Shown: positions 3,044 through 4,887 of the stretch, piece after piece | Layout of the letters: each line of letters begins with the position of its first letter | Position numbering within the stretch: position 1 is the stretch's first letter | IMG/VR virus record: IMGVR_UViG_3300025168_000712 | Coordinates: 1 to 23,060 of that record | DNA from: a virus | Reading direction: 5' to 3' (one strand) | DNA length: 23,060 nt | The notes under the pieces: generated by a model | Database searches by the model: none | The model's input: only the letters and a program-made list of their open reading frames with translations | Told to the model about the DNA's origin: nothing | Position numbers and translations under genes: made by a program

Positions 3044-3188
3044 GGGATTGGCAAGGCAAGGCAGTTACGGCGGGGCACGGCACGGCCCGGTTCGGCAAGG
3101 CGAGGCAAGGCAAGGCAAGGCAGTTGCGGCGAGGATGGCGGGGTAGGGCCAGGCAAGGCGGGGCACGGCACCGCAAGGCAGTTAAGGC
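3044..3188. repeat. GGCAA pentanucleotide array with 58-59 bp higher-order period
   Basis: A noncoding stretch of degenerate 5-mers (GGCAA, GGCGA, GGCAC, GGGGC). GCAGTT marks higher-order units at 3061, 3120 and 3178, spaced 59 and 58 bp, each preceded by GGCAAGGCAA- or CGCAAG-type sequence. The array ends directly at the TTGACA promoter (3188). The frames that run through it on both strands are products of the low complexity, not genes. Confidence 0.85.
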
Positions 3189-3858: not shown

Positions 3859-3931
3859 AATGGGACCGGAATATTTTTTGTTAATCGTAGTGGGTAGTAT
3901 CATATCAGCCGTTCTGACGTACTGGTATTGA
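3809..3931 (+). CDS. Small single-span membrane protein (40 aa)
   Basis: A perfect AAGGAG lies 6 nt before the ATG at 3809. The product starts with a strongly basic region (MKKIWKRLKRKENWESR) followed by one hydrophobic helix (YFLLIVVGSIISAVLTYW, residues 22-39), giving a positive-inside, N-in topology. The size and layout fit a holin-like or spanin-like accessory, or an inner-membrane superinfection-exclusion peptide; none can be chosen from sequence. It starts inside the zinc-finger gene and its TGA overlaps the ATG of the methyltransferase (TGATG at 3929-3933), so the three are translationally chained. Confidence 0.55.
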   Translation: MKKIWKRLKRKENWESRMGPEYFLLIVVGSIISAVLTYWY

Positions 3932-4887
3932 TGCTTACAACCGTTGATCTGTTTTCGGGAATAGGTGGATTTGCCCGTGGCCTTGAGGCTACCGGGCATT
4001 TCCGCACTACCTGTTTCGTGGAGCAGGATCCATATTGCCAGGCGGTGCTGAAGCATCACTGGCCCGACGTTCCTATACTGGATGACATAAGAAATGCCAA
4101 AGCCTTCGACTTTCCCGACGTCCGACCCGACCTTGTTTGCGGAGGATTCCCTTGCCAGCCGTTCTCACAGGCGGGAAGACAACGCGCCCAGGACGACCCC
4201 CGCCATCTCTGGCCAGAAATGCTTAGAGTTATCCGGGAGCTCCGGCCCACTTGGGTTGTTGGAGAGAACGTTGTTGGGCTCATCAAACTGGGCTTGGACG
4301 AAGTACTCACTGACTTGGAAGGCGAAGGCTACGCCACAAGGACGTTTAATATTCCAGCTTGCGCGACAGGCGCCCCGCACCTCAGACAGCGCGTCTGGGT
4401 TGTTGCACACGCCGACAGCGAAAGCGAACCAGATGGCACCTTCGATGGCAACGCGGGACAGCGGCAGTTGGGGCTCAACTTTGGGGGGCGCGAAGCCCCA
4501 TCACATGGTGCCAACCCCAACGACCATGGATCACATCGAGCGACAGAACACGAACCTGACGCCCAGCACGGGGAAGCTCAACTACGAGACGAACAAGTCC
4601 GTGAGCCTGGATCGGTGGGTCAGGATGTGGCCGACGCCAACCGTTCAGGACAGTGCGAACAACGGGGGTCCGAGCCAGTTCAGGAGGAACAGTCTGCCTC
4701 TGAATGCACAGGTGAAGCTGGACCAGAAAACCACTGGCGCTCTGAACCCGCAGTGGGTCGCTTGGTTAATGGGCTACCCAACCGAGTATCTCAGTTGCGT
4801 GCCCTGGGAAACTCAATCGTCCCGCAGATCGCGCAAGAAATTGGACAAGCAATAAGGATCGCACATGACGTATCAAAAGAAAATTAA
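3931..4887 (+). CDS. C5-cytosine DNA methyltransferase, main (alpha-type) polypeptide
   Basis: Transfers methyl from S-adenosylmethionine to C5 of cytosine in DNA, probably to protect phage DNA from host restriction. Motif I is DLFSGIGGF (residues 6-14), motif IV GGFPCQPFSQ with catalytic Cys75, motif VI ENV (112-114), motif VIII QRVWVVA (153-159), motif X ALGNSIVPQI (291-300). Motif IX and a normal target-recognition domain are missing from this frame: residues 161-270 are low-complexity and polar. The missing parts are encoded in the overlapping +1 frame (next entry). The length, 318 residues, matches the alpha subunit type of M.EcoHK31I. I start at 3931 (ATG in TGATG) rather than the TTG just upstream. 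No restriction endonuclease gene is nearby, so it is a solitary phage methylase. Confidence 0.9.
   Translation: MLTTVDLFSGIGGFARGLEATGHFRTTCFVEQDPYCQAVLKHHWPDVPILDDIRNAKAFDFPDVRPDLVCGGFPCQPFSQAGRQRAQDDPRHLWPEMLRVIRELRPTWVVGENVVGLIKLGLDEVLTDLEGEGYATRTFNIPACATGAPHLRQRVWVVAHADSESEPDGTFDGNAGQRQLGLNFGGREAPSHGANPNDHGSHRATEHEPDAQHGEAQLRDEQVREPGSVGQDVADANRSGQCEQRGSEPVQEEQSASECTGEAGPENHWRSEPAVGRLVNGLPNRVSQLRALGNSIVPQIAQEIGQAIRIAHDVSKEN
4094..4855 (+). CDS. Overlapping methyltransferase subunit (beta-type, carries motif IX)
   Basis: This 253-residue frame lies wholly inside the methyltransferase gene, shifted +1. Its content is protein-like rather than random: it has TLFAEDSLASRSHRRED and SLTWKAKATPQGRLIFQLA segments that I recognise from phage cytosine methylases, three copies of a P-T-P-T-type motif (HTPTAK, PTPTTMD, PTPTVQD), and LNPQWVAWLMGYP (about 217-229), which fits motif IX. 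It would supply the target-recognition region and motif IX that the main frame lacks, as the beta polypeptide of M.EcoHK31I does. Start choice is uncertain: there is no good Shine-Dalgarno at 4094, and a TTG at the T-L-F-A-E-D segment is possible. A pair of frameshifts in one ancestral frame is the alternative. Confidence 0.72.
   Translation: MPKPSTFPTSDPTLFAEDSLASRSHRREDNAPRTTPAISGQKCLELSGSSGPLGLLERTLLGSSNWAWTKYSLTWKAKATPQGRLIFQLARQAPRTSDSASGLLHTPTAKANQMAPSMATRDSGSWGSTLGGAKPHHMVPTPTTMDHIERQNTNLTPSTGKLNYETNKSVSLDRWVRMWPTPTVQDSANNGGPSQFRRNSLPLNAQVKLDQKTTGALNPQWVAWLMGYPTEYLSCVPWETQSSRRSRKKLDKQ

Follow-up and report, generated by a model that had tools for sequence, protein, structure and literature searches.

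A probable two-subunit C5-cytosine methyltransferase overprinted in two frames of one phage DNA strand

The window analyzed here is a linear virus record of 23 kb (IMG/VR record IMGVR_UViG_3300025168_000712, 23,060 nucleotides), and it contains a pair of overlapping genes on its plus strand. The longer one, alpha, runs from an ATG at position 3931 to a stop at 4887 and encodes 318 amino acids with the motifs of the catalytic subunit of a C5-cytosine methyltransferase (I-VIII and X). The other, beta, runs from an ATG at 4094 to a stop at 4855 and encodes 253 amino acids with a TRD-like region of PTP repeats and a motif IX. Both frames are open throughout; beta is in the +1 frame relative to alpha and lies entirely within it, and about 760 bases of one strand are thus read in two overlapping frames. 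An initial annotation of this DNA had given the same coordinates and frames, and these proved correct. The genes around the pair are those of a phage, encoding a small terminase subunit, helicases, a primase, a DNA polymerase and lysis proteins. The scan covered 20 other proteins of the window and recognised no restriction enzyme among them, and the pair therefore resembles an orphan phage methyltransferase. The usual role of orphan phage methyltransferases is protection of the phage DNA. The window also contains short GC-rich tandem repeats at 638-688 and 3094-3169, located near its left end or between genes, with units of 21 bases (CCCCGACCCGACTTGACCCGA) and 10 bases (GGCAAGGCGA).

We conducted separate profile searches with each frame. 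Alpha matched PF00145 (4.9e-41, amino acids 3-165 only) and, over its full length, PHROG 363 (1.1e-74). Motifs I, IV, VI, VIII and X, which the initial annotation had placed in this frame, were all seen in the alpha sequence. Motif I (DLFSGIGG; DLFSGIGGFARGLE), the SAM-binding motif, lies at 3946-3987, and motif IV (CGGFPCQPFS), with the catalytic Cys75, at 4138-4167; L7, F8, G10, G12 and G13 of the former and C75 of the latter are invariant in 56 relatives. Motif VI (GENV, 4264-4278; E112, N113 and V114), motif VIII (HLRQRVWVVA, 4378-4407; H150, R152 and R154) and motif X (LRALGNSIVPQ; LRALGNSIVPQIAQEIGQAI, 4795-4854; L292, G293, N294 and P298) have invariant residues as well. The AlphaFold model of alpha consists of an ordered HhaI-type catalytic core, an ordered C-terminal helix carrying motif X with high pLDDT, and a middle that is not ordered; its best fold match was M.HhaI (Z 21.5, rmsd 3.0 Å, 207 aligned residues). 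The middle, amino acids 165-283 (4423-4779), is predicted to be unfolded, with pLDDT below 50 over nearly all of its length, and the same DNA encodes the recognition region and motif IX of beta in the other frame. We found no segment of the LTPRE..R..GFP type in alpha, in agreement with the earlier claim that motif IX is absent from the main frame. In other words, alpha has motifs I, IV (PCQ), VI (ENV), VIII and X and the HhaI-type fold that characterise PF00145 enzymes, and the TRD and motif IX expected between VIII and X are found only across the two frames, with beta supplying both. Judged by these motifs, which include those for SAM binding and catalysis (I-VIII) as well as motif X, alpha is a C5-cytosine methyltransferase.

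Beta on its own matched PHROG 1008, annotated as "DNA methyltransferase" (1.5e-28, amino acids 13-236). It carries the motif IX-like segment that had been noticed in the +1 frame, LNPQWVAWLMGYP (4742-4780), in which P219, V222, W224, M226, G227 and P229 are invariant. The three P-T-P-T repeats described earlier were found with one correction: the sequence has two exact PTPT repeats (4511-4522 and 4631-4642, the latter with T181 invariant and P180 and P182 nearly invariant), and the one at 4406-4417 reads HTPT, with T106 and P107 nearly invariant. When beta was modelled alone, the mean pLDDT was 54, and the motif IX helix and a hairpin at amino acids 72-92 were better than the rest. This hairpin, YSLTWKAKATPQGRLIFQLAR (4307-4369), overprints alpha motifs VI-VIII, has W75 and L89 invariant and is the best-ordered part of beta (pLDDT 81 for block 71-80 and 86 for block 81-90). 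No fold match was obtained for the model, which was too poor for fold matching, and searches of PDB sequences with beta gave nothing significant. A beta that can fold only on alpha would be expected to give such a poor model, which does not prove that it folds in this way.

The identity of beta is clarified by gp60 of Mycobacterium phage Akhila, a single chain in which motifs I-VIII and X occur together with five LLPTP repeats and a IX-like segment, RLAAAFPEWMMGWPAGW. Given that Akhila gp60 holds all of these parts in one frame and matches both PHROG 363 (8e-77) and PHROG 1008 (2e-81), beta can be equated with the part of a single-chain enzyme that comprises the recognition region and motif IX. 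The pairwise similarity between the window beta and Akhila gp60 is weak, and the link rests on profiles. In the related locus L042, the segment GSLNPQWVAWLMGYPTEY is collinear with KLHPRECARVMGYPDSY of M.HhaI (269-296), in an alignment that is far below significance.

We shuffled the alpha codons synonymously and counted how often the +1 frame was open. For the window this occurred in 0.05% of 2000 shuffles, with a mean of 4.6 stops, and for eleven relatives treated in the same way in 0-0.25%. Two separate searches of IMG/VR, one with beta and one with alpha, supplied relatives; in the first 157 loci beta was in the +1 frame of alpha in every case, including 80 loci found with alpha alone. A first genome scan with beta alone gave no matches; scans of GTDB genomes and IMG/VR with a beta alignment did find distant relatives. 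Altogether, beta overlaps alpha in +1 in 308 of 308 fetched loci, from phages and many bacterial phyla, a set that includes repeat fetches of one contig and was found by similarity and is not a census. Because every relative examined that has beta overprints it likewise, the second protein is real despite its often missing annotation.

Stop counts from a region set by the open frames would be circular because those frames define the region, and the counted region was instead anchored on alpha motifs IV and X. Across 65 clusters (95% identity) and 15,297 codons between these motifs, there were no stops in alpha, four in +1 and 791 in +2. The initial annotation would have been contradicted by homologues in which the +1 frame is broken and the main frame is kept; three of the 65 clusters have a +1 stop, and all are explained. 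In L151 and L154, which have one stop each, the stop is beta's own end directly after motif IX. In L042, which has two, the TRD and motif IX have been shifted into alpha's frame after a frame change. At L042:2736-4106, motifs I-VIII continue in-frame into the PTP repeats and motif IX (457 residues), and part of the recognition region is duplicated. Either a real frameshift has re-fused these parts naturally, or the assembly contains an indel.

Next, we examined selection on the two frames. At four-fold sites of alpha (first two bases conserved), 30% differed in the non-overlapped 5' part and 7-14% in the overlap across 27 independent pairs. When pooled, the differences were 179/592 outside and 257/2547 inside the overlap, an approximately three-fold suppression that was seen in 23 of the 26 informative independent pairs (sign test p = 9e-5). 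The window and its nearest relative, L001, differ at 9 of 24 such sites outside the overlap and at 7 of 110 inside. We also used an overlap-aware count of changes (dNN/dSN for alpha and dNN/dNS for beta). Alpha dNN/dSN was 0.17-0.22 over the motifs and 0.77 in the middle (codons 165-265). Beta dNN/dNS in the overlap was 0.53 (0.44-0.62), compared with 1.57 for the +2 frame; by part it was 0.32 (alpha codons 110-165), 0.53 (TRD) and 0.44 (IX/X), and the +2 frame ranged over 1.5-2.3 in the overlap. The +1 control in the non-overlapped 5' part was already 0.70, not 1, and therefore nearby values such as 0.59 in codons 55-110 are by themselves no sign of selection on beta. Taken by part, these ratios indicate that beta is the main reason for retention of the middle and alpha the main reason for retention of the catalytic motifs, and that the IX/X end is retained for both. 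Thus, codon-wise comparison across homologues gave suppressed synonymous sites in alpha and a beta ratio below that of the +2 frame, and the earlier claim that more than 750 bp would code twice is borne out by conservation of both frames in homologues together with the suppressed synonymous change in alpha. By these patterns of substitution, alpha and beta are both conserved protein-coding genes.

The beta ATG is nearly invariant in relatives. In the window it is preceded, 8 bases upstream, by a weak Shine-Dalgarno sequence, GGATGA (4080-4085), and most relatives have AGGAG 8-10 bases upstream, written within alpha codons. The predicted anti-Shine-Dalgarno pairing had a median of -7.3 kcal/mol, compared with -5.2 kcal/mol in synonymous shuffles (Wilcoxon p = 2e-9, 55 related loci, relatedness not corrected). 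Internal initiation is favoured over programmed frameshifting because of the conserved ATG and Shine-Dalgarno sequence, and because a frameshift would leave the conserved N-terminal half of beta untranslated.

The initial annotation had cited M.EcoHK31I as a precedent. This enzyme has the site YGGCCR, and according to a 1995 report the gene of its beta subunit overlaps the alpha gene in an alternative frame. M.EcoHK31I and M.AquI are exceptions among C5 methyltransferases in that each consists of two polypeptides (PMC3404938). In M.EcoHK31I, motifs I-VIII and X are in the larger subunit and motif IX alone is in the smaller, and the predicted TRD was placed in the larger subunit, a placement that is itself a prediction (PMC3404938). 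The precedent stands for the motif layout across two frames: as in M.EcoHK31I, the window alpha has I-VIII and X without IX, and beta has IX in an overlapping alternative frame. For the TRD the two may differ, as it is predicted in alpha there and appears to be in beta here; unlike the published description of M.EcoHK31I, the recognition-like repeats of the window are in beta, and the alpha middle looks unfolded. The window pair also differs in that it is found in a phage record, with no recognised restriction enzyme among the 20 window proteins scanned. A search of plasmids and E. coli genomes for M.EcoHK31I-like genes returned no record under the name EcoHK31I, and those hits that were inspected were relatives of the prophage type.

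Counterparts also occur in other phages. Paenibacillus phage Shelly gp55/gp56 and Escherichia phage K1ind2 ORF29/ORF28 are pairs matching PHROG 363 and PHROG 1008, with the same nested +1 layout and the same motifs as the window. The window beta is about 35% identical to that of Shelly and 28% identical to that of K1ind2. The depositors annotated the nested gene in both, as 'g55 internal gene' in Shelly and 'Mte8-like' in K1ind2. Between motifs I and IV, the window alpha has a stretch that is missing from the K1ind2 alpha; at L157:2278-3207, motif IV follows motif I almost directly, and the motif II/III region seems shortened.

A different division is found in the mycobacteriophage and gordoniaphage pairs of Pumbaa, Geodirt and Firecracker, in which alpha ends after motif VIII and the TRD, IX and X are carried by a second frame that overlaps it in part. 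Like M.AquI and these pairs, the window has a second polypeptide that supplies the TRD and motif IX. However, the second polypeptide of M.AquI and these pairs also carries motif X, and their frames overlap only in part; in the window, alpha carries motif X and contains the whole of the beta frame, so that the second polypeptide does not have the IX and X combination of the M.AquI type. The single-chain M.HhaI and Akhila gp60 share the motif set of the window pair, and Akhila also has the PTP-repeat region, but both carry all motifs in one frame. In Gordonia phage Geodirt (L308:1483-2376 and 1838-2704), gp4, annotated as a DNA methyltransferase, is the beta-type polypeptide, and the alpha-type frame with motifs I-VIII lies directly upstream and is unannotated. 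In Mycobacterium phage Pumbaa (L159:2326-3072), gp78 is annotated from a late TTG, and its frame is open for about 160 bases further upstream; this extension overprints the end of gp79 and contains a W..FSGTFPTSGMTRSG segment that resembles those of Firecracker and Geodirt. An HNH endonuclease hidden within a methylase of a mycobacteriophage represents a different overlap (PMC11855218). In the literature searched, the overprinted family as such was not reported, beyond mentions of M.EcoHK31I.

We considered other explanations for the two frames. The possibility that the +1 frame is open merely as a by-product of alpha composition and codon usage is scarcely conceivable. Long secondary frames are indeed frequent in GC-rich phage genes, and the Thr/Pro/Ser-rich beta resembles a shadow frame, but synonymous shuffles leave the frame open in at most 0.25% per locus, alpha synonymous sites are suppressed and a curated family matches the +1 frame. 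A chance open frame was accordingly rejected on the shuffles, the PHROG 1008 match, the motif-anchored stop counts and the synonymous suppression. It would also be extremely improbable that the locus is a monomeric methyltransferase into which damage or mis-assembly introduced two indels, with the +1 frame as a displaced piece. The motif order across the frames is that expected from two compensating shifts. Against this, the same layout is found in every fetched locus, in independent assemblies and annotated genomes, and both frames are under constraint; moreover, the N-terminal part of beta overprints motifs IV-VIII and is no displaced piece. An indel artefact was rejected, given the nested layout in every fetched locus.

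Two further explanations accept beta as translated. In the first, alpha I-VIII would be joined to the TRD and IX of beta by a programmed +1 frameshift in place of internal initiation, with alpha alone as a product of truncated function. Such a fusion is structurally plausible, because L042 has I-VIII, TRD and IX in one frame and Akhila gp60 is a natural single chain. However, beta is equipped with a conserved ATG and Shine-Dalgarno sequence of its own, and the N-terminal half that a late shift would skip is conserved (S39, G40, G54 and W75 invariant) and selected in codons 110-165 (dNN/dNS 0.32); the fusion would also be without motif X, and we regard it as improbable. Very improbable, in our judgment, is a beta that is real but does not serve as a subunit of a methyltransferase, such as a separate regulatory or DNA-binding protein whose overlap with alpha is fortuitous. 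The lack of a PDB sequence or fold match for beta agrees with such a protein, but PHROG 1008 and the single-frame relative put the beta sequence inside C5 methyltransferases, and motif IX is missing exactly from alpha, with the IX segment collinear with M.HhaI.

The explanation that we strongly favour is a natural two-subunit C5-cytosine methyltransferase with its subunits overprinted on one strand. The initial proposal that the two frames each carry part of one C5 methyltransferase is supported by the profiles, the conservation of both frames, the synonymous suppression and Akhila gp60. From the sequences, it is most likely that alpha catalyses and beta supplies target recognition and motif IX, as an enzyme of the M.EcoHK31I kind, and we infer that alpha and beta form one working heterodimer. 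The ribosome would start alpha at 3931 and, separately, beta at the internal ATG at 4094. The two proteins would then assemble, with the recognition region and motif IX of beta completing the catalytic core of alpha, and the completed core would flip out and methylate cytosine at a specific site. Methylation probably shields the phage DNA from host restriction. The DNA of the disordered alpha middle would be retained mainly for beta. An origin of this layout by two frameshifts is plausible. We also tentatively suggest, as an idea with somewhat less than an even chance of being right, that one or a few ancient overprinting events gave rise to a large phage and prophage methyltransferase family across many bacterial phyla, with catalytic and recognition halves locked in the same DNA. 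Single-chain relatives have no counterpart of the N-terminal half of beta, which lies over alpha motifs IV-VIII, and under this idea that half would be a newborn subunit-interface domain.

In two E. coli prophages, of strains E21 (L314:3026-3757) and Ec1117 (L315:2930-3958), an intact beta frame lies under RefSeq genes annotated solely as 'DNA cytosine methyltransferase'. For E21, RefSeq lists alpha without beta, and in Ec1117 it splits alpha into two 'incomplete' pseudogenes; there the frame is open over 404 codons, and the beta frame is open too. The arrangement is already known in kind, and it is much more widespread than the single cited precedent suggests and often unannotated. Long same-strand overlaps that code for parts of one enzyme are rare curiosities, and here one has been retained in phage and prophage loci numbering in the hundreds. 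A prediction of methyltransferase specificity based only on alpha would leave out the probable reader of the DNA site. The overlap also provides a natural experiment on enzyme evolution under a constraint that keeps the catalytic and recognition parts from mutating independently of each other.
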